From positions 1 through 34,679 of the forward strand of contig JAILBN010000091.1 in NCBI GenBank assembly GCA_024680915.1: DNA of 34,679 nucleotides. Direction: 5' to 3'. Positions 1 to 18,019 of this stretch are shown here, in pieces. Every line of letters begins with the position of its first letter. Position 1 is the first letter of the stretch. Made by a program: the position numbers and the translations under genes. The notes beneath the pieces were generated by a model. The model was not told the DNA's origin. It was given only the letters and a program-made list of their open reading frames with translations, and ran no database searches. The DNA comes from Treponemataceae bacterium (GTDB lineage: Bacteria; Spirochaetota; Spirochaetia; Treponematales; Treponemataceae).

Positions 1-1
1 A

Positions 2-247
2 AAAAACACGCATGCTTTCACAAAAGAACAGTCGGATGTTTACCTGGAAAAATTCGGTGAAGATAAATGGAACACTATTCTTGCAGAAAAAGTTTCAGTT
101 GGAATGACAAAAGAAATGTGCCGGCTTTCTTGGGGTGAACCAAAAAGAGTAAATAAGACAATTACTGAAAGTGTTATAAGGGAACAATGGGTGTATGGAT
201 CAAACTATTTATATTTTGAAAACGGAATCTTATCCTCAATTCAATAG
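2..247 (+). CDS. BamE/SmpA-like protein, 3' part only
   Basis: The open frame enters from the left edge and ends at TAG 245-247, leaving 81 codons of the C-terminus. The visible part reads GMTKEMCRLSWGEPKRV (about residues 35-51), then an EQWVYG motif and a closing YLYFENGILSSIQ. This 'Gmt..evr..wG.P......eqWvYg...lyFenG.l' pattern is typical of the SmpA/OmlA/BamE fold found in small envelope proteins. The start, any signal peptide and the upstream context are outside the window, so a specific role in outer-membrane assembly cannot be assigned. A perfect 14-bp inverted repeat follows the stop. Confidence 0.6.
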   Translation, partial: KNTHAFTKEQSDVYLEKFGEDKWNTILAEKVSVGMTKEMCRLSWGEPKRVNKTITESVIREQWVYGSNYLYFENGILSSIQ

Positions 248-272
248 ATAAATTAAGGTATGCTCCGATGCA

Positions 273-308
273 TTATCTGACAGCAGAAATTATCCTGCTG
301 TCAGATAA
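273..308. terminator. 14-bp perfect inverted repeat between convergent genes
   Basis: TTATCTGACAGCAG (273-286) is matched exactly by its reverse complement at 295-308, with an 8-nt loop. It lies between the end of the BamE-like gene and the end of the leftward flavin reductase gene. There is no long T run on either side, only AT-rich flanks, so it is best read as a bidirectional terminator or 3'-end stabiliser. Confidence 0.6.
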
Positions 309-317
309 ACTTCTTAA

Positions 318-875: not shown

Positions 876-916
876 ATAAACCTCTGTATCTAGCTTTTTT
901 GCAGTTTTGTCCCTGC

Positions 917-1138
917 TCAGTTTTCTTCCCTGCTTTCACGAAGGGCTTGCATAATATCCTGGTGCTTTATGTCAAAAAGAGTCTTTATCCCTTCGAAGGG
1001 TGAGGCGGCCGAAGCCTCAGGTGTTATACGGAAAACAGACCCGTCAGCACGTTTTACAAGGACTGCGCCTTCGTTTTTTGATTTATCCAGTATAGTCGCG
1101 AAATTCTGTCTCGCTTCGGAATATGTAACTACAAGCAT
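917..1138 (-). CDS. Phd/YefM-family antitoxin
   Basis: This 73-aa protein begins VTYSEARQNFATILDKSKNEG, the N-terminal Phd/YefM DNA-binding fold ('...sear.nf..il.....'). It continues with AVLVKRADGSVFRITPE, the second strand pair of that fold. The C-terminal tail (HQDIMQALRESREEN) is charged and predicted helical, as expected for the part that wraps the toxin. Its start overlaps the end of the PIN gene by 10 bp (1129-1138), so translation is probably coupled. It is the second gene of a toxin-first operon. By family, it should neutralise the PIN nuclease and, alone or in complex, repress the promoter at 1525-1553. Confidence 0.85.
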   Translation of the reverse strand: MLVVTYSEARQNFATILDKSKNEGAVLVKRADGSVFRITPEASAASPFEGIKTLFDIKHQDIMQALRESREEN

Positions 1139-1518
1139 TTTACCCCCAGTGATAAGGCGTTTGTTTTCATGCCTTCATCCATTGTGAATAAAGGTAATGA
1201 AAGTTGTTGCGCCAAGGAAAGATAATATGCGTCATAGGCATAGGATGATGTCTTTCCTGCTGTCATAATGGAGTCTGGAATATCGGGTTCCATCAGCCTT
1301 ATAGGGATACGTGAGAATTCATGGTAAACAGAAATTCCTTCAACAATTGAAAGGAGATTTCTTTTTATCAGCTTGCTTATGGCATTCCCTATCTCATAAG
1401 AAATACAGGCAGGTGCGATAATCCTTGCAAAACCTACAGTTTGGACTACAGAATCCTTCTTTCCTTGATTCAAAAGGAACTCTAGGATGCAAGATGCATC
1501 TATTACAATCTCATTCAC
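1129..1518 (-). CDS. PIN-domain toxin (VapC-like ribonuclease)
   Basis: This 129-aa PIN protein carries the four acidic residues that bind metal in VapC nucleases: D7 in VIDAS, E42 in SYEIGNA, D96 in AYDAYYLSLA and D114 in TMDEG. The family cleaves RNA, often tRNA or rRNA. Translation starts at a GTG (1516-1518). There is no Shine-Dalgarno sequence before it, and the -10 box TACAAT ends only 6 nt upstream, so the message is probably leaderless. The toxin gene precedes the antitoxin gene, the reverse of most vapBC operons. All catalytic residues are intact, so the toxin is likely functional. Confidence 0.85.
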   Translation of the reverse strand: MNEIVIDASCILEFLLNQGKKDSVVQTVGFARIIAPACISYEIGNAISKLIKRNLLSIVEGISVYHEFSRIPIRLMEPDIPDSIMTAGKTSSYAYDAYYLSLAQQLSLPLFTMDEGMKTNALSLGVKCL

Positions 1519-1524
1519 AGGTCA

Positions 1525-1553
1525 ATTGTACTATTGTACAGCTAACCTGTCAA
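1525..1553 (-). promoter_or_regulatory. Toxin-antitoxin promoter with embedded TGTACA operator
   Basis: On the minus strand a consensus -35 TTGACA (1548-1553) is followed by 17 bp and a -10 TACAAT (1525-1530). The GTG start lies 6 nt further. The spacer holds TGTACA (1535-1540), and TGTACT (1527-1532, plus strand) overlaps the -10, together forming the inverted repeat TGTAC-N4-GTACA (1527-1540). A wider inverted repeat, ACAGGT/ACCTGT (1517-1522 and 1545-1550), brackets the promoter. TGTACA is the known core recognition motif of YefM-YoeB, so this is probably the autoregulatory operator. Confidence 0.75.
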
Positions 1554-1571
1554 GAAGAAAAATGGTTCTTC

Positions 1572-2090
1572 CTACTTTACGATGACAGCCTTGCCGATGA
1601 TTGCCTTGCTGCTGGGGCTTCCCGCCTTGTGGCCTATGGCTGCCGAGCCGTATACCCCATGGTTTTCGGGTATTCCGAATTCGCTTAGCAGCTCACGGAC
1701 AGAGGGATTGTCGAAGCAGTCATTGATTTGGTTGATCCATACACAGCCGAGCTTCAAAGCCTCTGCCCCAAGGTAGATGTTCTGCATGGCGCAGGCGTTG
1801 TCTACCTCACGGAAACGGCTTTCCTTGTCGTTGGAGGTGATTATGAGGACTGCCGGCTTGTACATGTTGTAGCTGGAGGGCATTCCAAGAGCTTGAGCCA
1901 CTGCTTTTGCAAGCTTCTGGATTTTTGCGGGGTCGGTGATGGCCGTGAACTGCCAGGTCTGTCTTCCCATGCCGCTGGGTGCAGCAAGGGCGCATTCCAA
2001 TATGGTCTGGACGTCACTCTGGGCGACCGCCTCTGTGGTAAAGGCTCTGCAAGAGCGTCTTTCTTTGATTAAGTCAATAAAAGTATTCAT
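1572..2090 (-). CDS. Nitroreductase family protein
   Basis: This 172-aa protein matches the nitroreductase family. It has IKERRSCRAFTTEAV at residues 9-23, the FMN-phosphate-binding 'RRSvR.f...pv' motif. ALAAPSGMGRQTWQF follows (the 'a..APSg.n.Qpw.f' motif), and near the C-terminus there is a GHKAG segment ('iG.p...'). Such enzymes are FMN-dependent NAD(P)H oxidoreductases acting as homodimers in the cytoplasm. There is no Shine-Dalgarno sequence; the -10-like TAAAAT at 2097-2102 is 6 nt from the ATG. The substrate is not inferable. It sits upstream of the toxin-antitoxin promoter, so it is probably a separate unit. Confidence 0.88.
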   Translation of the reverse strand: MNTFIDLIKERRSCRAFTTEAVAQSDVQTILECALAAPSGMGRQTWQFTAITDPAKIQKLAKAVAQALGMPSSYNMYKPAVLIITSNDKESRFREVDNACAMQNIYLGAEALKLGCVWINQINDCFDNPSVRELLSEFGIPENHGVYGSAAIGHKAGSPSSKAIIGKAVIVK

Positions 2091-2096
2091 AAAGGC

Positions 2097-2125
2097 ATTT
2101 TAGCAGAGGAAATCTCACTTGTACA
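2097..2125 (-). promoter_or_regulatory. Promoter of the nitroreductase gene, probably leaderless
   Basis: On the minus strand TGTACA (2120-2125) is followed by 17 bp and TAAAAT (2097-2102). Only 6 nt separate the -10 box from the ATG at 2090, so the expected transcription start falls on or next to the start codon. No Shine-Dalgarno sequence is present. Confidence 0.5.
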
Positions 2126-2142
2126 GAAAAAACGGCTCACCG

Positions 2143-2235
2143 GATTGCCGCCAGCCCACCGGCCTCCTGCAAGCTTTCGGGAGCGGCTGATGTTGCCCGC
2201 CAGCCCACGGAGAACCCCGCTCCGCAAGCTTCCGG
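2143..2235. repeat. Imperfect duplicated GC-rich segment
   Basis: The 2091-2302 gap contains two diverged copies of a segment about 50 bp long. Each copy has CGCCAGCCCAC (2149-2159 and 2198-2208) and then GCAAGCTT (2169-2176 and 2224-2231) followed by a CGG. I see no gene in it. It separates the divergent nitroreductase and MscS genes. Confidence 0.55.
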
Positions 2236-2302
2236 TAAGGGAAGGAGCAGTCCCTCCTAGAGCCCCCTTGTAATTGTCCGCTTTCCATATTAAAGTTTAT
2301 GT

Positions 2303-3214
2303 ATGGAAGAAGAAGTTATACAGGAAGTTCTTGTGCAGGAGGAGGCTCCCAATGCCTTTGCGGAGGCTGTGGGACACGCTGCCGATGATGCTTTTTTCAA
2401 GCAGACCAGTGGTATCTGGAACTGGATAAAAGCAGTTTTTACATGGGAGAATGTATTCAAGTGCATCGGTGGTGTATGCGTCGTGCTTATCCTTTTTCTT
2501 ATTTACAAGCTGCTGAGACGGGGTTTAAGACAAATCCCGGAACGTAAGTTTGCCAAGGCTAAGCTGGCAATAGCAGAAAAAGCTCTTAAATATCTTTTTT
2601 ATACGAGTATAGCCCTTTATCTTCTCAGTCTTTTCGGTATTGATCTTACTGCTATCTGGGGAGCTGCCGGGGTCGCCGGTATCGCCATTGGTTTTGCTGC
2701 CCAGACTTCCGTGAGCAACCTTATAAGCGGTCTTTTCGTCATAACAGAAGGCTCCATCCATGCCGGAGACACTATAATCGTAGACGGAGTAACGGGTGTG
2801 GTGGATGAGATAAAGCTCCTTTCCGTGCGAGTCCACACCTACGACAACCAGATGGTGCGTATCCCCAACTCCACGATAATAGACAAGAGTCTTACCAATA
2901 ACTCCTACTTCAAATGCCGCCGCCTTACCATAGGGGTCTCTGTGGATTATAAATCGGACATGAGGAAGTGCCTTGAGGTTCTTTCCAAGGCTCCTTCCCT
3001 TTGTCCCACAGTCCTTAAGGACCCTGCCCCCGCAGTATGGTTCGATGGCTTCGGGGACAGCTCCATCAACATGACTGTGGCGGTCTGGTTCAAGCCCGAT
3101 GATTTCCTTACCACCAAGAACGATATTTTCGTGGCCATAAAGCAGGTTCTTGACGAGGCCAGCATAGAGATTCCTTTCAACAAGCTGGATGTGAAGGTTC
3201 TTAAGGAATCGTGA
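2303..3214 (+). CDS. Small-conductance mechanosensitive channel (MscS family)
   Basis: This 303-aa protein has two hydrophobic segments near residues 49-70 and 91-110. They are followed by the pore helix TM3 with its glycine/alanine-rich face (GAAGVAGIAIGFAAQTSVSN, about 119-138). The beta domain follows, with the motif VRIPNSTII, and then the C-terminal alpha/beta domain. The channel opens under membrane tension to release solutes during hypo-osmotic shock. Length and domain order fit the short MscS class. The start has no obvious Shine-Dalgarno sequence and the promoter is unclear. It is followed by 32-bp tandem repeats. Confidence 0.92.
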   Translation: MEEEVIQEVLVQEEAPNAFAEAVGHAADDAFFKQTSGIWNWIKAVFTWENVFKCIGGVCVVLILFLIYKLLRRGLRQIPERKFAKAKLAIAEKALKYLFYTSIALYLLSLFGIDLTAIWGAAGVAGIAIGFAAQTSVSNLISGLFVITEGSIHAGDTIIVDGVTGVVDEIKLLSVRVHTYDNQMVRIPNSTIIDKSLTNNSYFKCRRLTIGVSVDYKSDMRKCLEVLSKAPSLCPTVLKDPAPAVWFDGFGDSSINMTVAVWFKPDDFLTTKNDIFVAIKQVLDEASIEIPFNKLDVKVLKES

Positions 3215-3230
3215 CGAAAAATTCTGCGGA

Positions 3231-3345
3231 GCCTGCTTGTAGCTTGGGGTTTTGTGGACAGAGCCTGCTTGTAGCTTGGGGTTTTGTGGACAGAGCCTTC
3301 TTATAGCTTGGGGCTCGGGGAACAGAGCCTGCTTTTTGTCTGGGC
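3231..3345. repeat. 32-bp tandem repeat array, 3 to 3.5 copies
   Basis: Copies begin at 3231, 3263 and 3295, with a fourth decaying from 3327. The first two are identical, the third has several changes and only the first 8-10 bases of the fourth match. Each unit opens with GCCTGCTTGTAGCTTGGGG. The array is just after the MscS stop and ahead of the MATE promoter. No coding role is apparent. Confidence 0.85.
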
Positions 3346-3420
3346 AGATGGATGTTCTTCCTGCCCATCCTGCCTTGCTTGGACTGGATGTTTGCAGTTT
3401 TTTGAAAATTTTGCTTTTTT

Positions 3421-3449
3421 TTGACATTATATGTATTTTTTGATAGTAT
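3421..3449 (+). promoter_or_regulatory. Promoter of the MATE gene with a near-absent leader
   Basis: A consensus -35 TTGACA (3421-3426), a 17-bp spacer and TAGTAT (3444-3449) lie directly before the ATG at 3460. The expected start of transcription is about 3456, giving a leader of about 4 nt. The TTG inside the -35 box is in frame with the gene, but using it would place the start codon inside the promoter. Confidence 0.75.
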
Positions 3450-3459
3450 CATTCTCACT

Positions 3460-4836
3460 ATGACACAGAAGCTAAAGGAGTCTGGGACTTCGGAAAACAA
3501 GATGGGCGTTATGCCTGTAGGAAGACTTCTGGTACAGATGTCTCTTCCCATGATGATCTCCATGCTTGTACAGGCCTTGTACAATATAGTGGACAGTATA
3601 TTCGTCGCTCAAATCTCAGAGAAAGCCCTTACCGCGGTATCGCTGGCCTTTCCTATACAGAGCCTTATTATTGCTGTTTCCACCGGAACCGGAGTGGGTA
3701 TCAATGCCCTTCTGTCAAAGAGGCTTGGCCAAAAGGATTTCCAGGGAGTCAACAAATCCGCTGGTAACGGTGTTTTTCTTTTCATCATCAGCTTCATAGT
3801 ATTCATCATCTTAGGAATAATAGTTCCCAGACCCTATTTCCAGTCACAGACCAATGACCCGGAGATAGTGGAGTACGGTGTTCAGTATATGACTGTAATC
3901 CTGACTGTAAGCCCTGGCTGCTTCATGGCCATTCTTTTCGAGAGGCTCCTTCAGTCCACAGGGCTCACGGTTCTTTCAATGGTATCCCAGCTTACGGGCG
4001 CCATATTCAACATCATTTTTGACCCTATACTTATCTTCGGTTATCTTGGCTTCCCGGCCATGGGCATCACAGGTGCCGCAGTGGCCACCGTCCTGGGCCA
4101 GATTGCCGCCGCCATTATATCCATCATATTGAATATCAAGAAAAACAAAGAGATAAGCTTCTCCCTGCGCTATATTAAGCCCGACAAGCGTGTCATAGCC
4201 GATATCTACAAGGTGGGTGTCCCTTCGATACTGCTTGCTTCTATCGGCTCCGTGATGACTTATTTCCTGAACCTCATCCTGGGATCCTTCTCAATGACAG
4301 CCGTCACTATTTTCGGTGTATACTTCAAGCTTCAGAGCTTTATCTTCATGCCTATCTTCGGTATGAACAACGGCCTTGTCCCTATAATCGCCTACAACTT
4401 CGGCGCACAGAAGAAAAAACGCATAATAGACACTATTTTCGTGGGTATAAAGATATCTGTGGGAATAATGATTATAGGAACCCTTGTCTTCGAGCTTTTC
4501 CCCGCCCAGCTGCTTTCCTTGTTCAATGCCTCTGACGAGATGATAGCCCAAGGCTGTCCTGCCCTCCGTATAATCGGAATTCATTTCCCCATAGCGGCGG
4601 TCTGTATCTGTCTTTTCTCTGTTTTCCAGGCTTTGGGGCAGGGCGTATACAGCATGATCGGCTCCTTCGTCCGTCAGCTTATAGTGCTGCTTCCTGCAGC
4701 CTGGCTTCTTTCTCTTACCGGAAGCCTTACCAACGTGTGGTGGGCTTTCCCCATAGCGGAAGTGTCATCATTGCTCACAGCCTTTTTCTTCATGAAAAAG
4801 GCCCACGCAAAATACATCAAGAATATGCCGGACTGA
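3460..4836 (+). CDS. MATE family efflux transporter
   Basis: This 458-aa multi-pass protein belongs to the MATE (NorM/DinF-type) family. After a short polar N-terminus it shows MPVGRLLVQMSLPMMISMLV and ALYNIVDSIFVA, the conserved TM1 and first loop of the family. About twelve membrane segments follow, with an internal repeat (VYFKLQSFIFMPIFGMNNGL opens the second half). MATE proteins export cationic drugs or metabolites using sodium or proton gradients; the substrate here is unknown. The start at 3460 is preferred over the in-frame TTG at 3421 because that TTG is the -35 box. There is no Shine-Dalgarno sequence. Confidence 0.92.
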   Translation: MTQKLKESGTSENKMGVMPVGRLLVQMSLPMMISMLVQALYNIVDSIFVAQISEKALTAVSLAFPIQSLIIAVSTGTGVGINALLSKRLGQKDFQGVNKSAGNGVFLFIISFIVFIILGIIVPRPYFQSQTNDPEIVEYGVQYMTVILTVSPGCFMAILFERLLQSTGLTVLSMVSQLTGAIFNIIFDPILIFGYLGFPAMGITGAAVATVLGQIAAAIISIILNIKKNKEISFSLRYIKPDKRVIADIYKVGVPSILLASIGSVMTYFLNLILGSFSMTAVTIFGVYFKLQSFIFMPIFGMNNGLVPIIAYNFGAQKKKRIIDTIFVGIKISVGIMIIGTLVFELFPAQLLSLFNASDEMIAQGCPALRIIGIHFPIAAVCICLFSVFQALGQGVYSMIGSFVRQLIVLLPAAWLLSLTGSLTNVWWAFPIAEVSSLLTAFFFMKKAHAKYIKNMPD

Positions 4837-4922
4837 CAGAAAGTGAGGCTTGCGCAGGGCCGCGGCAGTTGACTAAGGCACACTGGCGGTCTGCCACATT
4901 GGCGGACTGCTTGGACTAGCGG

Positions 4923-6395
4923 CTATTCAGTTACTGTTTTTGTCACCGCTGACACTGAGCTGGCAAAGCTTTCCTCTTCCTCCTTGCTCAAAAGCTCCTT
5001 GGCGTACAAGGCTTTCTCAAAAAGGGCGCCTGCAGCACCGCAGGGCTCACCCAAGGCCGGGTAACGCTCCGAAATAAGCGCTGTGTATTCGGCAGGGGCA
5101 AGACTCTTTTTATAGGCGATATCTCTCTCCTCTCCCCACTCAATGAGCTTGAGAAACTGGGTTGTCAGCCTGTCTATCTCTTTTTTCTTTTCCTTTGACT
5201 TTTTCGAGGCTTCCAATATGGAGCTTATCTTATCCTTGAAGACGGCTGCCGCCTGAGCATAGGCTTCTCCCTTTTTTATCTGTATGGAGAAAAGGGCTTT
5301 GATTGCGGTTTTAAGGGCATCCAGGAACCTCCGCAGATAGGTGAGAAGCTTCTTCTTTTTCCAGAAGTCCTTCCATTTGGCGGAGAAAAAGGGCCCGAAA
5401 AAGAAAAAGAGAAGCCCGCCTGCTATGGCCGCCAGGAATGCCCACTTTATGATGTTCATTATCATTTCAAGAATAGGGTTGGCCTCTGTCTCCATTATGC
5501 CTGGCGGTATCGGGCTTGCCGGCATTCCCTGGCTGAAGCTCTGCTCCGGGGGAGGGGCAGCCTGCTCTCTTTCCTTTGAGCCGAAAAGCATCCTCAGGAA
5601 ATCCAGGAGCCAGGAAAAATACGAGGGCTTCAAGAGAGCATTATCTGAGGAAATGAAAAGGGCGATTAGGGCACAAAGAATACAGAAAAGGAAGGAAATG
5701 AGGAGCAGTCTGTTCCTTATGCCGAATATAGCCGAAAGTCCCAGTCCGGCGTAATAGGTCTCGTTCTTGTATATTGAGTTGAGGATAAGTGTAAGAAGAA
5801 GCAGGACGGTGTGCAAAAGAATGAAGACGAGACTCAGGACGGAGATCTGGGTGTTGGTAAAGAAGAGAACCAGGAAAAAGAGCAGGGTCACCACAGACAA
5901 AATACTGGTCTTGAAAAGGCTGTCATTCATCTGCTCCACGTAATCCGAGGTCAGCCAGCTCTGTTCGTGCAGCATTGAGGACAGGGACTGTCCGGTAAGA
6001 TCCCCGCAGTTCTTAGCGAAAGAGTCATGGCAGGCGAAAGCCTTGTCCAGCTTTATCACAAGAATCCATTCCAGGACGGAGGAGGGAATCGTGATGAAAA
6101 TGGGTACCACGGGGATAAGGAAAAGAAAAAGAGCTATGGATATCACCTGGTAGAAAACAAGAAAGCGCAGGTTGGCGAAAACTCCGGCTTTTTCATTGAG
6201 GAAAATCCAGGAGACAAAAAGGGCTATGGCACCTGTAAGAAAAATATATAGGCAGAAAATCCATTCAGTGAAATAAAAAGAGGTAAAGCGTTCTATAAGG
6301 TCATTGAGCAGCAGCATAACGCCTGAAGCTGCCGTACTCACCAGAAAAAGGACCAGTATGCGCTCTGCCGCAATGGCGATAGGTTTCTTGTTCAT
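4923..6395 (-). CDS. Multi-pass membrane protein with DUF4129-like C-terminus
   Basis: This 490-aa protein has about six hydrophobic segments in its first 250 residues, a proline-rich linker (near residues 275-300), another membrane segment around 315-335 and a charged cytoplasmic C-terminus. That C-terminus (LIEWGEERDIAYKKSLAPAE, then EYTALISERYPALG) resembles the DUF4129 pattern of a helical domain with 'R..sltp.Eya'. No transglutaminase domain is visible, although one often accompanies DUF4129. Its start overlaps the DUF58 stop by 4 bp (ATGA, 6392-6395), so it is the third gene of the moxR operon and probably part of the same envelope complex. The exact function is unknown. Confidence 0.65.
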   Translation of the reverse strand: MNKKPIAIAAERILVLFLVSTAASGVMLLLNDLIERFTSFYFTEWIFCLYIFLTGAIALFVSWIFLNEKAGVFANLRFLVFYQVISIALFLFLIPVVPIFITIPSSVLEWILVIKLDKAFACHDSFAKNCGDLTGQSLSSMLHEQSWLTSDYVEQMNDSLFKTSILSVVTLLFFLVLFFTNTQISVLSLVFILLHTVLLLLTLILNSIYKNETYYAGLGLSAIFGIRNRLLLISFLFCILCALIALFISSDNALLKPSYFSWLLDFLRMLFGSKEREQAAPPPEQSFSQGMPASPIPPGIMETEANPILEMIMNIIKWAFLAAIAGGLLFFFFGPFFSAKWKDFWKKKKLLTYLRRFLDALKTAIKALFSIQIKKGEAYAQAAAVFKDKISSILEASKKSKEKKKEIDRLTTQFLKLIEWGEERDIAYKKSLAPAEYTALISERYPALGEPCGAAGALFEKALYAKELLSKEEEESFASSVSAVTKTVTE

Positions 6396-7414
6396 AGGGT
6401 CCTCTCTGCCTCCTGTACTGTCTCAGGTCCTATTATGAAGATTCGGGTCCTGTCGGGCAGCTTGTGTTTAAGCGTCTCCATGGGATCGTAAGAAAGAGAG
6501 CCTTTCTCCATCTGGATAAGGGCCAGCAGGTCAAGGATGCAGCCTGTCTGGCCGCTGGCGGGAGGCAGGTAGGGAAAACTGTCGGAATAGGCGGCGAATC
6601 CGCATTTCTGGTGCAAAAGCTCTGCCTTGCGTATTATGGCGGCGGCTATCTTGATGGCCTTCTCTCCTTTGTCGTACCTTTGCTCCAGGGGGTAATCCTC
6701 AAGGGCAAGGTTCAAAAAGACGAAGACAGGGCAGTCGAAGGTGTTCTGATACTCGTTGGTATAAAGGCTGCCGTATTTTGCGCTTGCCCTCCAGTTTATC
6801 CTTTTCAGCTCGTCTCCGCTCCTGTATTCCCTGAGGGAGCGCCTCATGGTCACGTCCTCGTAGCATATATCTTGGATATTCATGCTTCCTTGGGGAATTC
6901 CTGTCTCCAAGTCCATGGGGTAACGGACTTCCGCCGGATGGATTATGACCTTGCATTCCTTTTTGTATGTGTTGGTGAAAGGAAAAAGACCCAAAGGGTC
7001 AGAGGCTGAGATGATTACAGGTCCCACATGGAAAACTCCCCTTGTGGTACCTGCTGTGGTGTAGCTGAAGGTCTTTACCTCCCTTGGCCTTAAGGTGAAA
7101 AGAAAGCGGCTTGTTCCAGCTGAAGGTGAGAAGGCCCCGGGGTTGTCATGGGCGTAGCAGACGAAGGCAGGAAGCCTGGAGTTGTTGGTTACCGTAAAGG
7201 AGATGGTGAAGGCGTCTCCGCAGGCGGCTCTAAGAAAGACAACCGGCCTTTCCACTGTTATGCTTTTCCTTAGTACCCCGGAATAAAGACGGGAGATTAT
7301 TATACCTATGACCACGGCAAGGGTAATGCACTGGATTATTTTTGCGGGGGCAAAGAGAAATACGAGAAAACATAATATTGCGACAGATTTTGGTGAAAGC
7401 TCTTTTCTCCTCAT
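6392..7414 (-). CDS. DUF58 family protein
   Basis: This 340-aa protein begins with two short membrane segments (about residues 10-45). A beta-rich region follows with TTRGVFHVGPVIISASDPLG, the usual DUF58 lead-in. Then comes the family signature REYRSGDELKRINWRASAKY at about residues 196-215. The remaining C-terminus is von Willebrand A-like. DUF58 proteins are nearly always encoded next to MoxR ATPases and are thought to work with them in assembling metal-cofactor or envelope complexes. The gene starts 24 bp after moxR and overlaps the next gene by 4 bp, so the three are translationally linked. Confidence 0.9.
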   Translation of the reverse strand: MRRKELSPKSVAILCFLVFLFAPAKIIQCITLAVVIGIIISRLYSGVLRKSITVERPVVFLRAACGDAFTISFTVTNNSRLPAFVCYAHDNPGAFSPSAGTSRFLFTLRPREVKTFSYTTAGTTRGVFHVGPVIISASDPLGLFPFTNTYKKECKVIIHPAEVRYPMDLETGIPQGSMNIQDICYEDVTMRRSLREYRSGDELKRINWRASAKYGSLYTNEYQNTFDCPVFVFLNLALEDYPLEQRYDKGEKAIKIAAAIIRKAELLHQKCGFAAYSDSFPYLPPASGQTGCILDLLALIQMEKGSLSYDPMETLKHKLPDRTRIFIIGPETVQEAERTL

Positions 7415-7438
7415 TACGATAGGTCCTGGGGCTTGTAA

Positions 7439-8392
7439 TCAGATGTGAGCTTTATATGCCGGAATCGGGATCTGTCCTGTGAGCTCAGTGATTATTCCGT
7501 CAGTGGTATAGCCCCGGAGTACTGATTCCGGCTTAAGTATCAGCCTTTTGCGGAAGGCCGGCAGGGCAAGCTGCTTAATATCCTCCGGGGTCACGTAGTT
7601 CCTTCCGTGTATGGCGGCGTAGGCCTGGGCAGCCTTGTAAAGGGCTATGGAGCCTCTGGGGGAGATACCCGCCAGTATACGTTCATCCTTGCGGGTGGCC
7701 GCAGACAGGGATATCAGATAGGAGAGAACCACTTCATCCACATGGATGACAGAAACCTCCTCCATGGCGGCAAGAATCTCTTCCTTGGTGGTGACGGCCT
7801 TTACCTTCTCCACCGGATGAACCAGCCCCCTCTGGGCTGTTATAATCAGGGCCTCGTCTGCTTCCTCCGGGTAACCGATGGACAAAGCCAGCATAAAACG
7901 GTCTTTTTGGGCCTCGGGCAGGGGAAAGGTTCCCTCTGATTCCACCGGGTTTTCTGTGGCTATCACAAAAAAAGGAGGCTCCAGCTTGTGAACCTTGCCG
8001 TCTGCGCTGACCTGTTTTTCAGCCATAGCCTCAAGCAAGGCTGACTGGGTTCTGGGAGTCGCCCTGTTAAGCTCGTCCACAAGAACAATGGAGGACATGA
8101 CCGGACCCGGTCTGAACTGGAATTCCCCTGAGGAAGGCAGCCAGACGGAGCTGCCGGTTATATCGGAGGGCATCAAGTCCGGAGTGCACTGAATGCGGGA
8201 GAAGGGGAGACCGACGCTGGCCGCTAGAGCCTTTGCCAATACTGTTTTTCCTGTTCCCGGAACATCCTCAAGGAGGACGTGACCTCCTGCAAATAGGGCT
8301 GAAAGCAGCATATCCGTTATCTCTGCTTTGCCCCTGAAAACCTCTGAAACTGAATTCTGTATTTTTAAAGCTGTTTCCTGTATCTTTGTCAT
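7439..8392 (-). CDS. MoxR-family AAA ATPase
   Basis: This 317-aa protein has a Walker A motif DVPGTGKT (43-50), a Walker B motif IVLVDE (102-107) followed by the MoxR hallmark LNRATPRTQSALLEAM, and sensor/arginine-finger regions ending in a MoxR lid domain (YVTPEDIKQLALPAFRKRL). MoxR proteins act as chaperone-like AAA+ hexamers that insert cofactors or mature partner proteins, here presumably the DUF58 protein. No Shine-Dalgarno sequence precedes the ATG. The TATAAT box ends 7 nt upstream, so the mRNA may be leaderless. A possible sRNA or attenuator lies just upstream at 8462-8603. Confidence 0.93.
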   Translation of the reverse strand: MTKIQETALKIQNSVSEVFRGKAEITDMLLSALFAGGHVLLEDVPGTGKTVLAKALAASVGLPFSRIQCTPDLMPSDITGSSVWLPSSGEFQFRPGPVMSSIVLVDELNRATPRTQSALLEAMAEKQVSADGKVHKLEPPFFVIATENPVESEGTFPLPEAQKDRFMLALSIGYPEEADEALIITAQRGLVHPVEKVKAVTTKEEILAAMEEVSVIHVDEVVLSYLISLSAATRKDERILAGISPRGSIALYKAAQAYAAIHGRNYVTPEDIKQLALPAFRKRLILKPESVLRGYTTDGIITELTGQIPIPAYKAHI

Positions 8393-8399
8393 GAAAAAA

Positions 8400-8429
8400 A
8401 TTATAGCATGATTATTTATGATGTTTAAA
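8400..8429 (-). promoter_or_regulatory. moxR promoter adjacent to the start codon
   Basis: On the minus strand a perfect TATAAT (8400-8405) is preceded by an 18-bp spacer and a weaker TTTAAA (8424-8429). The gap to the ATG at 8392 is 7 nt, so transcription probably starts at or 1 nt before the ATG. Confidence 0.55.
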
Positions 8430-8461
8430 GTTCATAGACGGAACTTGTGATGCCTTTTTTG

Positions 8462-8504
8462 CAAAAAAAAAGCCTCTGCGAGTGGCTTACTTCCCGCAGG
8501 GGCT
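8462..8504 (-). terminator. Rho-independent terminator, leftward
   Basis: On the minus strand AGCCCCTGCG (8504-8495) pairs with CGCAGAGGCT (8480-8471) around a 14-nt loop, with one C-A mismatch. It is followed at once by nine T residues (8471-8463). The T run exists only in the leftward direction, so it cannot serve the rightward lipoprotein gene. Confidence 0.65.
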
Positions 8505-8568
8505 GAAAATATGAGGGGTATCTACAAAAGTAGGCAAGAAAAGCAAAGCTCGTACAATTAGTTAGCCT
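8462..8568 (-). ncRNA. Candidate small RNA or attenuator leader upstream of moxR
   Basis: A complete transcription unit is visible on the minus strand. It has a consensus promoter (8575-8603), a predicted start near 8568, about 100 nt without an obvious gene and a terminator-like hairpin with nine U at 8462-8504. The RNA would hold a small CCUAC/GUAG hairpin (loop UUUU) in the middle. I find no match to 4.5S, 6S or tmRNA signatures. It could be a stand-alone sRNA, or a leader whose terminator attenuates transcription into moxR, which starts 70 nt further on. Sequence alone does not separate the two. Confidence 0.5.
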
Positions 8569-8574
8569 ATGCTA

Positions 8575-8603
8575 ACTATATATTTATAAATTTCTTTTGT
8601 CAA
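8575..8603 (-). promoter_or_regulatory. Strong promoter of the 8.5-kb RNA with overlapping palindrome
   Basis: On the minus strand a consensus -35 TTGACA (8598-8603) is followed by a 17-bp spacer and TATAGT (8575-8580). A perfect 8-bp inverted repeat, TAGTTAGC (8559-8566) and GCTAACTA (8571-8578) around CTAT, covers the end of the -10 box and the predicted start site. That is a typical position for a repressor site. Confidence 0.65.
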
Positions 8604-8733
8604 TAGAATTTCAAAAAATCTTGGATATCAAATTATATATCCCTTTCAGCCTTTTTTGCAGTAATGTTCCCTTGCTTTTAGGAATGGAAAATGTTGTATT
8701 TCGTTGAAAAAATAAGAGATAAGCTTTTATTTA

Positions 8734-8772
8734 TATAATCTTCATGTTATAAAAAAAGTTAAGAGGTTTTAT
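8734..8772 (+). promoter_or_regulatory. -10 box and Shine-Dalgarno of the beta-helix lipoprotein gene
   Basis: A perfect TATAAT lies at 8734-8739. No convincing -35 box is found 16-18 bp upstream (the nearest, TTGAAA, is 24 bp away). AGAGG at 8762-8766 stands 7 nt before the ATG at 8774 and supports that start, even though the frame it opens does not continue into the main protein. Confidence 0.45.
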
Positions 8773-8773
8773 A

Positions 8774-11700
8774 ATGCGAAAAAGTCGCGCTTTTGCGCTT
8801 TCTTTGTGGGTTTTGTTTTTTATTACTTCCTTTTTCTCTCATGTGGTAATTTGTTTGATAATGTACGCTCTGATAATCAGGAAGAAAATAATATAGTTCT
8901 TTGCACTTGCCAGGTAAGCAGTGCCTTCACCAATGGAGGAGCTGTGCCCGCTGAGTATGCTGTTGGCACTGTAGCCGGAGATGACAGCCTTTCGTCAGTA
9001 GCTGCCGGCCTTGCAGAAGGAGCAGATAACCGCTCCGCCATGCCCTCGGCGCCAGTAGCTGCGACTTTCTTCGACTCTTACTATTATTATGTAACGGCGA
9101 CGGCATAGGGGCAGGACACCATAAACAAGACCATAACAGACAGCCATTCTTTCTCTTTATCCCTCTCATCTGGTCGTGTGTGGAATGTCACAGTGGAGAT
9201 GAAAAAGAAGGCTGGTTCGCAAGCTGCCCCTGCCACTACCGTTCTCACGGATACCCAGGAATTTGACCTTAGTGAGGAGGCTGCCATAAACCGGGATTTT
9301 TTCCTCAAGCCCTACACAGGGGAGGGGGCAGGGACCGGAAGCATCAATCTGGCTTTGACCTTTGATTCTGGCGTTTCAGCGGATTCTATTACATATATTT
9401 TGATAAAGCTAGATGAAGAAAATTCAATTGCATTGAAAAAAAATACGATCTCAGGAAATACAAATAATGGAAAATGGGCTGTGACAGGCTCATTTACTTA
9501 TGAAAGCAATCCTATTATAAAAATAACCAGCATAAATTCAGGTGTCTACCATGCTGTTCTGAGCTTCTATAACAGTGATGGTGATGACAAGGTAAGTCTT
9601 TATTCTGTGCTCCAGGAAATCAATGTTTTCCCTGGTATGGAGACTAACAGATGGGTTCTACCCTCTGATTTCTTGAATGAGAACGGCTATTTTAAAATAA
9701 CCCAGGCCATGGTAGATAACTATATAATAAGGGATTTTTACGTGGGTAATTGTGGAACCGCAACTCCAGATGATTCAACGGGGAATGGCGGTCCTTACAA
9801 GCCCTATGCCACTGTGGCTAAGGCTGTGGATGTAATAAAAAAACTTCCATTGGTTGATTCTGAGAACAATACCATAGAATATACGATTCATGTCAAGGAT
9901 GGAACTCAGAATAATGTCGAATCCCAAATCAGTATAAATAGGCATATAACGATAGAGTGCTGGAAATATGATTTCGGAGATACGAAGGGTTCTGCGACCC
10001 TGACATGGAACAGTGAAACCACCGGCAGTATGTTCTCGATAAAAAACAATTCCAGCCTGACCATAGAGGGCGTGAAATCTGCCGGAGACAACCCCACCTG
10101 GAGCGGCCTTGTCCTTGACGGTAACAAAGGGGCTGGAAAAACAGGCCAGGGTATAACAATTGATTTGGGCGTTTCTGGAGTCCTGCAGATGAAAGGCGGG
10201 GAGATAAGAAATTTCAACTCTGGCAATACTAACGGGCCCGGCATCGCTGTCAACGGCAGAACTGCTTCTTTCGTAATGACAGGGGGAAAAATAAGCAGCA
10301 ATGAGACTTCTGGCAGTGGTGGAGGTGTGTATGCGTATTTGACTCCATTCACTATGACGGATGGTCTTATATCGGGGAACAAGGCCCAGAATGGTGGTGG
10401 GATAGCTTTACAAGGAAGTAGTACAAGCGATTCCTCTTCCGCGATAATGAATATGAAAGGTGGAGTTATAAGTGGAAATACAGCCATAACAAGCGGAGGT
10501 GGTATATACAATACTTGGGGGACCATTTATATGAGTGGGAATGCCATTGTTGGTGACTCAAGCCAATCAGAACATGCGACGGCGGTTTCCTTTTCTAATA
10601 AAGCAAGGGATGGAGGAGGAATTTTTAGTGCAGGTAACAATAATAAATTATACTTGGGATATACCCCGAATACCGAATCAGATGGGAAGCCTGTGCCTGA
10701 CAATGATTTCTCCGGGGGAATTTTTTATAACTATTCAACACAGACTTCTATAGGGTCGGGTGGTCAAACGTCTGGTGGTGGTTTATGTTTGCATATGACA
10801 GAAATGAAATTAAACAAGTGCAAGATAATGAATAATGGTGCTGGATGTGGTGGAGGAGGAATTATAACGAGTGGATCAGCTTCCTGCCTCATCGGGGATG
10901 ATTCGATCATTTCGGGAAATTCTGCTAATGGTTTTGGCTTTGGTGTGTATTTCAATTCTACAGGTTCTTTCTGCATAGAAGGCTCTGCTTACTTAGCTCA
11001 CAACGATGATATCTATCTTGGTTCTGGTAAAATAATCACCATAACAGGGGCTCTGAATCCGCCAGCCGAAGCTAATGGCAAGGTTGCGACTATAACTCCT
11101 GGCAGCTATAACTCGACAAATCCTGTGCTGGAGGTTTCTACGGATCCAGACCCCACGACAACGCTTGCGGATGAGTGCGGTAAATTCGCGGTTACACCAA
11201 ATAATAGCGTTAATTATCGGCTTGGTTCTGACGGTAAGTTGCATAAGATAGTTTCTGTGTCTAATCCGACTGAATTACAGAATGCAATACAGGCAGCTAG
11301 TACTTCAGGCGATGCAATTACTATTAGTGATAATATTGCTATTACTCAAGGTTTCTCTGGTACGGAAAGCCAAAAACTTAGTATAGATGGAAACAATGTG
11401 AACCGCCTGAAGATGGAAAGTTCCACTAGTGATATTGAATTCCAATGTATTGATTTTACTAATGGTAAAATTAATACAAACGAACAAGAAGGTGGAATGC
11501 TGAGTCTTAATGGTAATGGTTCTAATTCTTTGACGATAAAGAATTGCTCTTTTAGAAACTGTTCAACTTATGATAGAGATAAGGATAATAATAGAGGTGG
11601 GGCTCTTTATATTGCGGGCTTTAAAAATGTTACTATAGAAGACTGTGAGTTCTCTGCTAACAATGGGGATGCCGGTTCTTATAGGGATTATCTTGCTACA

Positions 11701-12108
11701 AGCGGAGGTTTCATATATCTAAGTACGCCTGAAGGAGCGACTGTTTATATAAATCGCTGTAGCTTTACCGGAGGTTATGCAAGTCATGGAGGAGCAATAG
11801 CTATTCATCTCGATGACATTCAAGGCACTGTAACAACCCCTTCGGAAATGAATATCGATTCTTGTACCTTTACAAAAAACCATGCTGACTGGAATGGAGG
11901 GGCAATTGATTTTTCTAAAGGAAGTAAAATTACTATAAAGAATTCTACATTCACGGATAATGCGGTAGATAACTTTAACGGAGAAATAGGTTCAGGTAAT
12001 GTATATATACATGATAACCGCACAGTAACCTTGACGGGTTCTTGTACAATTGATGAAACGGAAATTATAGGAGCGCAGGAAAACGTTGAGAAAACAAGTA
12101 GCTTCTAG
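8774..12108 (+). pseudogene. Beta-helix/PMP-repeat surface lipoprotein gene, apparently interrupted
   Basis: The main frame from about 8806 to 12108 encodes a large repeat protein but lacks a proper start. A well-placed ATG at 8774 (Shine-Dalgarno AGAGG) opens a signal-peptide-like sequence in another frame, stopping near 8897. The main frame supplies the matching lipobox region FLFLSCGN (Cys at 8842), so one base change within about 8816-8841, which includes a T6 run (8816-8821), separates the two. An in-frame TAG (9106-9108) then interrupts YYYYVTATA before GQDTINKTI; one C-to-T change from CAG would explain it. The rest (about 990 residues) has many GGG(I/V) and GGA(L/I) repeats with ISGN/MTGG phrases, like chlamydial PMP and right-handed beta-helix surface proteins. 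If repaired it would be an outer-surface lipoprotein. Sequencing error cannot be excluded. Confidence 0.7.
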
Positions 12109-12129
12109 TATTTCTTATCACCGCTTCTT

Positions 12130-12165
12130 ATTGTAAACTTTTTTTTTCTGAATTAGGTTTACAAT
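12130..12165. promoter_or_regulatory. BirA-type biotin operator
   Basis: ATTGTAAAC (12130-12138) and GTTTACAAT (12157-12165) form a perfect inverted repeat with an 18-bp spacer. This matches the known bacterial BirA operator (TTGTAAACC, about 14-15 bp, GGTTTACAA), with a slightly longer spacer. The right half-site contains the -35 box of bioY, so biotinyl-AMP-bound BirA should block polymerase. Confidence 0.85.
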
Positions 12166-12186
12166 ATAGGGCGAATCTGCTATAGT
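12158..12186 (+). promoter_or_regulatory. bioY promoter, probably leaderless
   Basis: TTTACA (12158-12163), a 17-bp spacer and TATAGT (12181-12186) lie 7 nt before the ATG at 12194. Transcription should begin at 12193 or 12194. There is no Shine-Dalgarno sequence. Confidence 0.75.
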
Positions 12187-12193
12187 CATCCCC

Positions 12194-12805
12194 ATGAAAA
12201 ATAAAACTGCTCTTTTATCAGCTTTTATAGCCTTGTTTGCGGCCATTATCTGTGTCGGCTGCTTTATTAAGATCCCTGTGGGGGTTGTTCCCATCGTTCT
12301 GCAGAATATCCTCTGTATTTTGACTGGTGTTCTGCTGGGAGGGTTTCTGGGTTCGGCACCTGCCGCACTTTTCCTGCTTGCCGGGCTTATCGGTCTGCCT
12401 GTTTATTCCGGAGGAAGCGGAGGCATTGCTGTTTGGCTTGGACCTACCGGCGGCTTTTTGCCAGGTTATCTTCTTGGAGCCCTTGTGGCCGGTCTTGTCG
12501 CTGGGAAAGCCTCTGTTACCGAGAAAAAAATCACTTTCAAGAAGGCCCTCCGCATTACACTGGCTATTGTTGCAGGTATGCTCATCCTCTATGTTCCAGG
12601 CGTAATCCGCTTTGCCTACTGGGCTTTGGGGGCGGGTAAGGTTCCGGCGGACAAGTCTGTGCTTGCCTATACAATGGGTGCCTGTGTCCTTCCTTATATT
12701 CCCGGTGATATAATAAAAACCGTGGTAGCTGTTCCTGTTGCCCTTAAGCTTCGTCCTGTCCTGGCCCAGTATCTTTATTCCTCTGTGAAAGAAGGGCAGA
12801 AGTAA
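12194..12805 (+). CDS. bioY: Biotin transporter substrate-binding subunit BioY
   Basis: This 203-aa membrane protein has about six hydrophobic segments and the BioY core: PVGVVPIVLQNILCILTGVL, then GLPVYSGGSGG and LGPTGGFLPGYL, in family order. BioY is the S-component of an ECF-type importer that captures biotin at the cytoplasmic membrane. It is followed by ecfA and ecfT genes, giving a complete BioMNY-like system. The gene starts at ATG with no Shine-Dalgarno sequence. Its promoter overlaps a BirA-type operator, so expression should fall when biotin is plentiful. Confidence 0.95.
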   Translation: MKNKTALLSAFIALFAAIICVGCFIKIPVGVVPIVLQNILCILTGVLLGGFLGSAPAALFLLAGLIGLPVYSGGSGGIAVWLGPTGGFLPGYLLGALVAGLVAGKASVTEKKITFKKALRITLAIVAGMLILYVPGVIRFAYWALGAGKVPADKSVLAYTMGACVLPYIPGDIIKTVVAVPVALKLRPVLAQYLYSSVKEGQK

Positions 12806-12806
12806 G

Positions 12807-13541
12807 GTGGATGAAGCAAGAATGGACGGCCTTTCTGTCAGGAATGTCTCTAAGACTTTCGTAACTGCCGCAGGTGAGAAGCAGGCCTTGAAGGATGTTT
12901 CTTTTCAGGTGGAGGAGGGCTCCTGTACCGTCATCGGTGGAGAGAACGGCTCCGGAAAAAGTCTTCTCATGTCCATTGTGGCCGGTCTTACTGATTGTGA
13001 TTCCGGATCGGTGCAGTGCTGCGGCAAGGTCGGTCTTGTTTTCCAGGAGGCAGAGACTCAGATTCTGGGGGAGACCCCTGCCGAGGATGTGGCCTTTGGT
13101 CCCAAGAATTTGGGCTGGAGAGGGGATCGTATTCGCTCCGCTGTGGATTCTGCCCTTGAGCGGACAGGACTGAGCTCCAAGGCTGATTTTCCTGCCCGCT
13201 TTCTTTCCGGCGGGGAGAAACGCCGGCTGGCTGTGGCCTGTATGCTTGCCATGGAGCTTCCTGTCATTATCCTTGATGAACCCTATGCCAACTTGGATTA
13301 TGGCGGGGTCAAGCAGGTGAATGCCCTTGTCCGTGACCTTAAAAGTCAGGGCAAGACGGTTATTGTGCTTACCCACGAGATTGAGAAGTGCCTTGGCCTT
13401 GCGGATCATTTTATTGTGCTTTTCCGAGGGGAGAAGGTTTTTGACGGGACTCCCTCCGAGGGACTTTCTCAGAATCTTGAGGCATGGAATATCAGGAATC
13501 CTCTGGTCTCTTATTCCTCGGTCAGCGATTTGCAGTGGTAG
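12807..13541 (+). CDS. ECF transporter ATPase for biotin uptake (BioM/EcfA)
   Basis: This 244-aa ABC ATPase has Walker A GENGSGKS (45-52), Q-loop VFQEAETQI typical of EcfA proteins, signature LSGGEKRRLAVA, Walker B VIILDEPYANLD and switch histidine LTHE. It energises the BioY importer. The GTG at 12807 follows the bioY stop by 1 nt; an ATG at 12822 (five codons later) is an alternative start with AAGGTGG 11 nt upstream. Gene order Y-M-N with gaps of 1 and 9 nt indicates one operon. A single EcfA probably works as a homodimer, as in other BioM systems. Confidence 0.92.
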   Translation: MDEARMDGLSVRNVSKTFVTAAGEKQALKDVSFQVEEGSCTVIGGENGSGKSLLMSIVAGLTDCDSGSVQCCGKVGLVFQEAETQILGETPAEDVAFGPKNLGWRGDRIRSAVDSALERTGLSSKADFPARFLSGGEKRRLAVACMLAMELPVIILDEPYANLDYGGVKQVNALVRDLKSQGKTVIVLTHEIEKCLGLADHFIVLFRGEKVFDGTPSEGLSQNLEAWNIRNPLVSYSSVSDLQW

Positions 13542-13550
13542 GAAGGCGGT

Positions 13551-14348
13551 ATGAGGAAAAAAAGCCTTCAGTATTCGACTTTCTCTTACAAGGCAGGTAA
13601 GTCTTTTCTGCACCTTTGCCCGGCTTGGGTAAAGATTCTTCTTCTGCCTCTGGTCAGTATCGCCCTTTTTCAGCTTCCCCCTCTTTTTGCGGCGGTCTTT
13701 TTCCTTCTCCAGATGATTCTTGCCTTCTGTTTGCGCTTCACTCTCCGCGAGCAGCTGCTGGACTTACGGCCCATCCTTTATTATGCCTTTATGCTTTTTT
13801 TCGTTAAGCTGCTGGTCTTTATCGCCCAGTATGCCTCCGGGGCTTTTCCCCAGCTTGGTCGGGGCTTTCTTTCCTATTTCTCCGGCGAGGAAGAGACTCT
13901 TTTTATGCTGCTAAGGCTTTTGTGTGTTATGCAGACTTCTTCAATGGTTTTCAAGACTTCTACGTCCTTGCAGCTTAGGGAGGGTCTGGAGAAGATGGAG
14001 CTGGCAATCCGTGGTGTCTTCAAAGGTCGCCGTAACTCCTCCGGCCGCCGTGGCAGCTCTGGTCGCCGTGGCAGCTCTGGTGGCTCCTTTGTCTGTGGCG
14101 ACAGTACCAGTCCTGATTCTCGTGTCCCCCGTGCTCCTGTGGCCGATGTGGTCGCTCTTTTCGTCTGTTTTATTCCCCAGGTCTCAAAAAGCTGGCAGCA
14201 GATAAAACGTGCCTGGAAGGCTCGTGGAGGAAAAACCTCCATCCGTATGTACATGGTGTTGCTCCCGCTTCTCTTTTCGGTGGGTATGAAGGATGCCTAC
14301 AACACTGCCCGCGCCCTTTCTGTACGCAGACCAGACGGGCAGGATTAG
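13551..14348 (+). CDS. ECF transporter transmembrane subunit (BioN/EcfT) with repeat insertion
   Basis: This 265-aa protein has the EcfT layout: hydrophobic segments in residues 25-145, a coupling helix pair and a final membrane segment. The first coupling motif is KRAWKARGG, matching the EcfT 'A.ra.RG' element; the second is degenerate (TARALSVRR near the C-terminus). Between the two cytoplasmic helices lies an unusual segment, GRRNSSGRRGSSGRRGSSGG (residues 159-178), made by three 18-bp DNA repeats; most EcfT proteins have a short loop here. It should link BioY to the ATPase. A Shine-Dalgarno AGGAAGG lies just before the ATG. Confidence 0.85.
   Translation: MRKKSLQYSTFSYKAGKSFLHLCPAWVKILLLPLVSIALFQLPPLFAAVFFLLQMILAFCLRFTLREQLLDLRPILYYAFMLFFVKLLVFIAQYASGAFPQLGRGFLSYFSGEEETLFMLLRLLCVMQTSSMVFKTSTSLQLREGLEKMELAIRGVFKGRRNSSGRRGSSGRRGSSGGSFVCGDSTSPDSRVPRAPVADVVALFVCFIPQVSKSWQQIKRAWKARGGKTSIRMYMVLLPLLFSVGMKDAYNTARALSVRRPDGQD
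14028..14081. repeat. 18-bp in-frame tandem repeat inside ecfT
   Basis: Two identical copies (14046-14063 and 14064-14081, CGCCGTGGCAGCTCTGGT) follow a diverged copy at 14028-14045. They encode RRNSSG, RRGSSG and RRGSSG. The length keeps the reading frame. Confidence 0.9.
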
Positions 14349-14443
14349 GTCAGGCTTTAGGCTTGCTGGCCGCGCACACAATGAGCCGAGGCGACTGGGC
14401 GTTTTGCGGTCACTGCGGCTTCGCGGCTGGGAGCCGAAAAGCC

Positions 14444-15670
14444 CTATTTCGTGAAATTGGCTGATTTCAGGGAGACTTCCCCAGAGCTCAGTGTTTTCCT
14501 GCTTCCGTCCTCCAGCTCCACCACCAGCTCCGCATTGTCATCGACATCAATGGCAGTGGCGGTGTAGACAGATTTTTCGTCGCCTATTATGGGGTGGACC
14601 TCCAGCTTTTGTCCTATAAGGAACATGAGCTTTTTGTATTCGGCTATGACCTTTTCTTTCGGTTCATCGTAGATTTTTAGCACCTGACCTGCCACCTCTG
14701 CGGCTAACTGGCAGCGGCTGACTGCCTGGGCGGCTCCCTTTGCTGACTTCGTGGCTGAGGCTCCGGCTTCCCCTTGTGCACCCGCTTTCCCAAGGGCTTC
14801 GTCTCTGGCTTTTGTCGTGACCTTTTCCGCTGTGGCTTCGGCCGTGACTTGTGCAGGAGAGTTTCCACAGATGTCGGCAGTCATGCTTCCCTTGGATCGG
14901 GAGAGGTCTTCAATAAAGCCCGCTATGTCCTTGAGTTCCCCCTGCAAAGCCTTTGAGGGCTTTATGTTTATACCGATTCCTATTATGGCCGATTCTATCC
15001 GCCTCATCTCGAAATTGGTCATGCCCTCCGTCAGTATTCCCACAACCTTTTTTCTGACTCCTCCGTTATCGATGAAAATGTCGTTTATCCATTTTATGGC
15101 CGGTTCTGCCTTGTAAAGCCTTTTTATTGCCCGGCAGACGGCCACTGCCGCAAAGGAGGTTATCAGGGCTGGCTCTCTTATTCCTCCCTCAGGTGCGTAG
15201 ATTATGGAAAGGTAGATGCCTGTTTTGTCAGGAGAGACGAAGCTGCGTCCCAGTCTTCCCCGGCCTGCGGTCTGGCTTTCTGCCACGATTACGGCCTGGT
15301 GGTATTTCTGCCCTGCCGGGGTCAGGCTTCCGTCTATTGTCCTGAGGTTGCCGCATTCTGATAGCAGCCTTTTTGCATAGGTGTTGGTGGAGTCTATTTC
15401 CTTGTGCCACTCTGTGTGGCAGTCTTTGAATTCCGGGAATTGGTCTGAAAAAGCTTGGGCGAAAAGCTCCGGGGAGCAGATATCCTCTCCTGAAAGCACG
15501 TAGCCGCCGTTGGTGCTTCCTTCAATAGAGAAGCCCTGCTTTCTCAGGGAAGAGACAGCCTTCCAGATGGCGGCCCGGCTAACGTCGCACTGGGCGGCCA
15601 GCAGTTCGCCTGAGACAGCTTTCCCGCCGGCTGCCACAAGCTGCTCCAATACCTTGTCTTTTGTGGTCAT
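14444..15670 (-). CDS. birA: Bifunctional biotin-protein ligase/biotin repressor with Ala-rich insertion
   Basis: This 408-aa BirA has an N-terminal winged helix (residues 1-60, CDVSRAAIWKAVSSLRKQGF), a ligase domain with GRGRLGR (136-142), KWIND (193-197, usually KWPND) and GIGINI (231-236), and a C-terminal SH3-like domain. Usual length is about 320 residues. The excess is an Ala/Thr/Lys-rich stretch at about 259-319 between the catalytic and C-terminal domains. The enzyme makes biotinyl-AMP, biotinylates carboxylase carriers and should repress bioY through the operator at 12130-12165. It converges on the bioY operon. There is no Shine-Dalgarno sequence; a TATAGT box (15682-15687) is 11 nt from the ATG. 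Confidence 0.92.
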   Translation of the reverse strand: MTTKDKVLEQLVAAGGKAVSGELLAAQCDVSRAAIWKAVSSLRKQGFSIEGSTNGGYVLSGEDICSPELFAQAFSDQFPEFKDCHTEWHKEIDSTNTYAKRLLSECGNLRTIDGSLTPAGQKYHQAVIVAESQTAGRGRLGRSFVSPDKTGIYLSIIYAPEGGIREPALITSFAAVAVCRAIKRLYKAEPAIKWINDIFIDNGGVRKKVVGILTEGMTNFEMRRIESAIIGIGINIKPSKALQGELKDIAGFIEDLSRSKGSMTADICGNSPAQVTAEATAEKVTTKARDEALGKAGAQGEAGASATKSAKGAAQAVSRCQLAAEVAGQVLKIYDEPKEKVIAEYKKLMFLIGQKLEVHPIIGDEKSVYTATAIDVDDNAELVVELEDGSRKTLSSGEVSLKSANFTK

Positions 15671-15681
15671 ATAATATTGAT

Positions 15682-15687
15682 ACTATA
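15682..15687 (-). promoter_or_regulatory. -10 box of birA
   Basis: TATAGT on the minus strand lies 11 nt before the birA ATG, implying a leader of about 4 nt. No good -35 box was found, and no BirA-type palindrome is present here. Confidence 0.45.
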
Positions 15688-15718
15688 AAAAGTGAGAAAA
15701 ATCTATGAGGAGGGAAAG

Positions 15719-15768
15719 CAGGGGAGTTTTCCTCCCCTGAAATCCGGAGTTTGGCTCCTGACAGAGCC
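15719..15768 (-). terminator. Hairpins after the outer-membrane barrel gene
   Basis: CAGGGGAG (15719-15726) pairs exactly with CTCCCCTG (15732-15739) around five bases. A smaller hairpin GGCTC/GAGCC lies at 15753-15768. Both follow the stop of the leftward barrel gene. A T-rich stretch comes only some 15 nt later, so termination efficiency is uncertain. Confidence 0.4.
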
Positions 15769-15769
15769 T

Positions 15770-17985: not shown

Positions 17986-18019
17986 ATCTGTAAATCTCCT
18001 TTCTTTGTAAAAGTATCTT

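Follow-up and report, generated by a model that had tools for sequence, protein, structure and literature searches.

Iron-sparing small RNAs (sRNAs) without mutual sequence relation have been known from several bacterial groups (PMC9410917). FsrA of Bacillus subtilis and IsrR of Staphylococcus aureus are such RNAs repressed by Fur, and FsrA binds Shine-Dalgarno sequences through a C-rich motif, while IsrR also has C-rich motifs (PMC9410917). For repressors of the IdeR/DtxR type, the one-dimer operator consensus is the 14-bp TTAGGNNNNCCTAA, i.e., TTAGGN4CCTAA (PMC8464063), and the primary metal site has been assigned to the residues M10, C102, E105, and H106 (PMC2628430). In Treponema denticola and T. 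pallidum, the DtxR-family metal repressor TroR has been described, whose 18-bp operator has dyad symmetry and lies close to a sigma-70 promoter (PMC2628430). An iron-sparing sRNA from spirochetes has not been found in the literature searched.

The locus considered here lies in a window of 34,679 nucleotides, the whole stretch that was analysed, of the Treponemataceae bacterium assembly GCA_024680915.1 (contig JAILBN010000091.1). With a probability of roughly 0.55, we regard it as the gene of a stand-alone sRNA that belongs to an iron-starvation regulon, would be repressed by an IdeR/DtxR-like protein, and probably acts in trans. Judged from its sequence, it is a stand-alone non-coding gene with its own promoter and intrinsic terminator, its promoter carries the operator of a regulon whose connection to iron is derived from gene content, a conserved segment accessible for pairing is present, and a DtxR-family protein is encoded in the operator-bearing genomes. 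In kind, the sRNA most likely joins FsrA, IsrR, MrsI, and RyhB, and by sequence it falls into no Rfam family. As in FsrA and IsrR, a stand-alone unit, a promoter with an iron-type repressor, a single-stranded C-rich motif, and an intrinsic terminator come together (PMC9410917), whereas neither an Rfam nor a sequence relation to them exists and the predicted repressor is DtxR/IdeR-like instead of Fur. MrsI from Mycobacterium tuberculosis, predicted to be IdeR-repressed and iron-sparing (as described in PMC9410917), is similar in these respects, but belongs to another phylum and has no known sequence relation, and the operator found here is a single-dimer one with C/T as the inner base. Repression by iron and synthesis in starvation would be shared with RyhB and PrrF of the Gammaproteobacteria (PMC9410917); those, however, are Fur-controlled, RyhB is Hfq-assisted, and no sequence match to them has been seen. 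The TroR system resembles the locus in the DtxR-family type of the metal repressor and in a dyad operator near a sigma-70 promoter. Identity of the two operators has been ruled out, as ATTTTGATATATCAAAAT, the T. denticola operator region as taken from an oligonucleotide, differs from GTTAGCN4GCTAAC. The 119-residue protein encoded here lacks the SH3-like domain of T. denticola TroR.

The elements of the locus and its neighbours are compiled in Table 1. The minus-strand promoter proposed in the initial annotation, TTGACA and TATAGT with a spacer of 17 bp, has been located and is one of only two 11/12 matches on both strands of window positions 1-20000, with transcription expected to start at ∼8568 on the minus strand. 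The GC hairpin followed by nine U has been recovered in the same way, and so has the palindrome with its 8-bp arms, which covers the end of the -10 box and the expected start. The fold of the single RNA sequence is unremarkable (z -0.31), and a search of Rfam 15 at gathering and relaxed thresholds has returned nothing credible, with no match reaching the gathering cut-off. Since the folding is not unusual by itself and an Rfam match is lacking, the case must rest on conservation. That the region codes for no obvious protein has held as well: none of the reading frames on the RNA strand is conserved across the three species that carry the RNA. A hidden small protein has accordingly been rejected, as also the plus-strand frame beginning MRGIY..., compared by eye, diverges after five codons.

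Table 1. Positions in the window of the predicted sRNA gene, its signals, and neighbouring genes
Feature	Position	Strand	Basis or remark
moxR-like AAA ATPase gene	7439-8392	minus	downstream neighbour; not conserved beside the RNA
moxR promoter-like site TTTAAA-18-TATAAT, 10/12	8400-8429	minus	consensus match only; after the sRNA terminator
U tract, nine U	8463-8471	minus	first U doubles as final stem base
Predicted sRNA, about 106 nt, from transcription start through U tract	8463-8568	minus	promoter and terminator positions; conserved in L002, L003
Intrinsic terminator hairpin AGCCCCTGCG-GGAAGTAAGCCACT-CGCAGAGGCT	8471-8504	minus	one C-A mismatch; covarying stem
Terminator loop GGAAGUAAGCCACU, 14 nt	8481-8494	minus	invariant
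Invariant block GUAGAUACCCCUCAU, 15 nt, proposed seed with exposed CCCCUC	8511-8525	minus	identical in three species
Variable 5' linker of the RNA	8526-8558	minus	differs among the three species
Palindromic operator TAGTTAGCATAGGCTAACTA = TAGTTAGC-ATAG-GCTAACTA, 8-bp arms	8559-8578	no strand	predicted; core GTTAGCN4GCTAAC 8561-8576
-10 box TATAGT	8575-8580	minus	same letters in both relatives
-35 box TTGACA	8598-8603	minus	also TTGACA in both relatives
bioY, conserved divergent neighbour	12194-12805	plus	Pfam BioY; synteny with L044/L045/L071
ECF transporter ATPase gene (ecfA) after bioY	12807-13541	plus	present in all three species

Two more copies, both in the same genus, have come out of a DNA-level search through this genome and its relatives, 59 draft assemblies in total. 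They belong to the metagenome-assembled genomes Treponemataceae RUI404 (G005) and Spirochaetaceae RGIG8125 (G001), the latter from water-buffalo rumen, and we take a rumen origin of RUI404 from its isolate name. Common to the three loci are TTGACA, TATAGT, the palindrome, GUAGAUACCCCUCAU, and a terminator whose loop of 13-14 nt is invariant. Of the 10 pairs in the terminator stem, 5 have changed on both sides across the three species, and 96.7% of the cells stay paired, compared with at most 53% in slid controls. The comparison among related treponemes that the initial annotation had suggested has shown a conserved module with a covarying terminator in two congeneric species, and both promoter and hairpin, whose loss in close relatives would have spoken against the RNA, are kept there. 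At E < 1e-16, a run of the covariance model against 274 family genomes has found no loci beyond the three already known, which places the RNA in 3/274; weaker matches have no operator, and those read, the 12 best, look like ordinary terminators. Among the loci fetched from other genera, no convincing gene-less unit of operator and terminator has been found, with the three known ones recovered as a positive control. At one locus (L249, G087:C12:46669-46684), a strong terminator hairpin stands ∼70 nt after an operator, with no obvious gene between them and no C-rich block, which may be another operator-controlled short RNA or merely the end of a convergent gene.

The suggestion that the palindrome points to regulation has gained strong support, as the same palindrome is a regulon-wide predicted operator. 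The motif GTTAGCN4GCTAAC has been counted at nine sites in this genome (G000) and at nine in RUI404, with 0 for the reversed control, and none occurs in four congeners, in which the conserved 15-nt RNA block is missing too. Its relaxed form GTTAGYN4RCTAAC has been found in 209 of the 274 family genomes with up to 30 sites in one of them, the control matching few. DUF3793-flavodoxin operons adjoin the operator both in this genome and in RUI404, and the further neighbours in these two comprise MATE transporters, heavy-metal P-type ATPases, a Trep_Strep-CbiQ ECF transporter, paired ABC transporters close to AraC or TetR genes, and genes for NifU-like, GGGtGRT, MntP, and HMA/FeoB-associated proteins. 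At 30 relaxed-operator loci of other genera, the adjoining genes include FeoB, DUF3793, Trep_Strep, and ABC transporters. Because flavodoxin and FeoB, classical genes of iron starvation, are among the neighbours, the operator set is most simply an iron regulon, and we infer that iron is the regulatory signal. GTTAGYN4RCTAAC is apparently a widespread Treponemataceae operator of an undescribed DtxR-type iron regulon. The module with its conservation and covariation, as well as the predicted operator regulon, can be shown from the sequence. It speaks against this picture that RGIG8125, where the sRNA has a perfect operator and the DtxR protein is the same, has only one other relaxed operator, while this genome and RUI404 have 17 each.

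Regarding the repressor, the geometry of the operator, TTAG-N6-CTAA in the form of TTAGYN4RCTAA, fits the one-dimer DtxR/IdeR type, with C/T in place of G as the inner base. In each genome of the genus, a single match to the DtxR-family metal-binding domain has been found. The corresponding protein of 119 residues is 90-93% identical among the three RNA-bearing species, compared with 38-55% for other congeners; among solved structures, IdeR-type iron-dependent repressors come closest to it. Its residues M8, C99, E102, and H103 match the metal ligands M10, C102, E105, and H106 of DtxR/IdeR. Within one large genus of the family, the EMYLETI type of the protein has been observed in 15 of 15 operator-rich versus 2 of 15 operator-free genomes (Fisher p 1.8e-6, uncorrected for kinship); of the other 13 operator-free genomes, 12 have an EDYLEAI type, in which Asp replaces Met, and one has none. 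Against this pairing, the EMYLETI-type repressor occurs together with no or one operator in G002, G006, and the two operator-free genomes that carry it. From the operator geometry, the metal ligands, and the distribution of the protein we infer that the IdeR/DtxR-like protein is the candidate repressor of the palindrome.

Since the operator overlaps the end of the -10 box and the start site, a metal-loaded repressor should block the promoter and metal starvation should release it. One may postulate that under plentiful iron the metal-loaded IdeR/DtxR-like repressor would reside on GTTAGCN4GCTAAC across the -10 box and the start and block RNA polymerase. Under scarce iron it would leave, and an RNA of ∼105 nt would be made that ends at its own intrinsic terminator and would be co-induced with flavodoxin, metal transporters, and the other genes behind the same operator. 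The invariant and exposed ACCCCUC could then pair with G-rich ribosome-binding sites, upon which the translation of selected mRNAs would fall, in the manner of iron-sparing sRNAs.

A different signal or a different repressor has to be considered as well. The sRNA could belong to a metal regulon that responds to manganese or another metal, or could be repressed by a Fur-family protein, since MntP and heavy-metal ATPase genes are close to operators, the DtxR-like protein has its best NCBIfam scores, below cut-off, against the manganese regulators MntR, and Fur-family proteins are also encoded. We consider this unlikely, as the operators adjoin flavodoxin, FeoB, and NifU-like genes, the protein has Met at the position of the Asp in MntR, and the geometry of the operator is DtxR-like. 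Several operator clusters that comprise paired ABC transporters and MATE genes contain or adjoin TetR genes, which would also be compatible with a palindrome that is a TetR operator of exporter genes, in which case the RNA would answer a small molecule instead of a metal. However, the same operator precedes flavodoxin-DUF3793, ECF-CbiQ, and FeoB genes, and its presence tracks a DtxR subtype, which makes a TetR operator very improbable compared with control by the IdeR/DtxR-like protein.

The mode of action and the relation to moxR offer two further alternatives. In folding predictions, the CCCCUC core is unpaired with 0.84-0.98 in all three RNAs, and the sRNA probably acts in trans through this exposed stretch. 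As the target scans have come without confirmation, trans action is derived from the anatomy of the RNA: complements of the 12-mer with one mismatch have given no convincing sites at gene starts (18 versus 12 for the control in this genome), GAGGGGT before ATG amounts to 18 versus 34, and pattern scans have given no clear enrichment of seed complements near start codons. Extended pairing is kept for V-ATPase subunit E in three species and for EF-G in two, within a set chosen by motif; we do not claim them as targets, because of this choice and because they are not iron proteins. The negative scans would suit an RNA that works mainly via protein binding or via the loop GGAAGUAAGCCACU, and this 14-nt loop matches the seed in its invariance, although the stem beneath it covaries. 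On the other hand, the single-stranded block of 15 nt is equally invariant and exposed, and it is in line with the C-rich motifs that FsrA and IsrR have (PMC9410917), so that action without the CCCCUC seed appears rather improbable. The initial annotation had left the choice between an sRNA and a terminator-controlled leader of the moxR-DUF58 operon, in which read-through would lead to moxR expression. The sRNA part has stood, as a conserved stand-alone unit with its own operator, and the leader part has fallen, as synteny exists with bioY-ecfA and not with moxR. Indeed, the moxR gene begins 70 nt downstream on the same strand, and read-through of an intrinsic terminator is possible. The RNA, however, is divergent from bioY-ecfA in all three species (protein identity 81-85%), whereas the downstream gene on its strand is moxR only here, a HAD-type phosphatase in RGIG8125, and an ECF-type membrane protein in RUI404 (the last two by eye), and no moxR has been found in 20 kb around the RGIG8125 copy. 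Moreover, moxR is preceded by a promoter-like site of its own, and a conserved alternative structure that involves the terminator has not been seen. A position upstream of moxR is thus not conserved, and the leader, rejected on synteny, is an extremely remote prospect next to a stand-alone sRNA.

At about even odds, the locus would represent the first described iron-sparing sRNA of spirochetes together with an undescribed Treponemataceae-wide iron regulon, in which a short IdeR-like repressor acts on the single-dimer operator GTTAGYN4RCTAAC, present at up to 30 sites in a genome, and a lineage-specific sRNA has been recruited in a small number of rumen species. If true, it would add a spirochete example under DtxR-type and not Fur-type control, and the operator supplies a testable map of the iron regulon for many treponemes. 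As the RNA is so far confined to three rumen species, one could study a recent origin.

Some minor observations concern the region towards bioY. In this genome only, the RNA is separated from bioY by a lipoprotein-like reading frame (8774-12108, plus strand) with a signal-like start and an LSCG motif. It contains an in-frame TAG at 9106-9108, continues as an ORF of 976 residues without Pfam match, and may be a pseudogene or reflect a sequence error. Between the sRNA promoter and bioY of L003 and L002, a conserved hairpin-forming stretch GAAAGGGAAAAAGAAACC...GGTGTCGTTTTCCCTTTC has been noticed that is not recognisable in the window and is perhaps another short RNA or a terminator. Upstream of bioY, an inverted repeat resembling a BirA box, TTGTAAAC...GTTTACAA, is located at 12131-12164 of the window and occurs in L003 and L002 as well.
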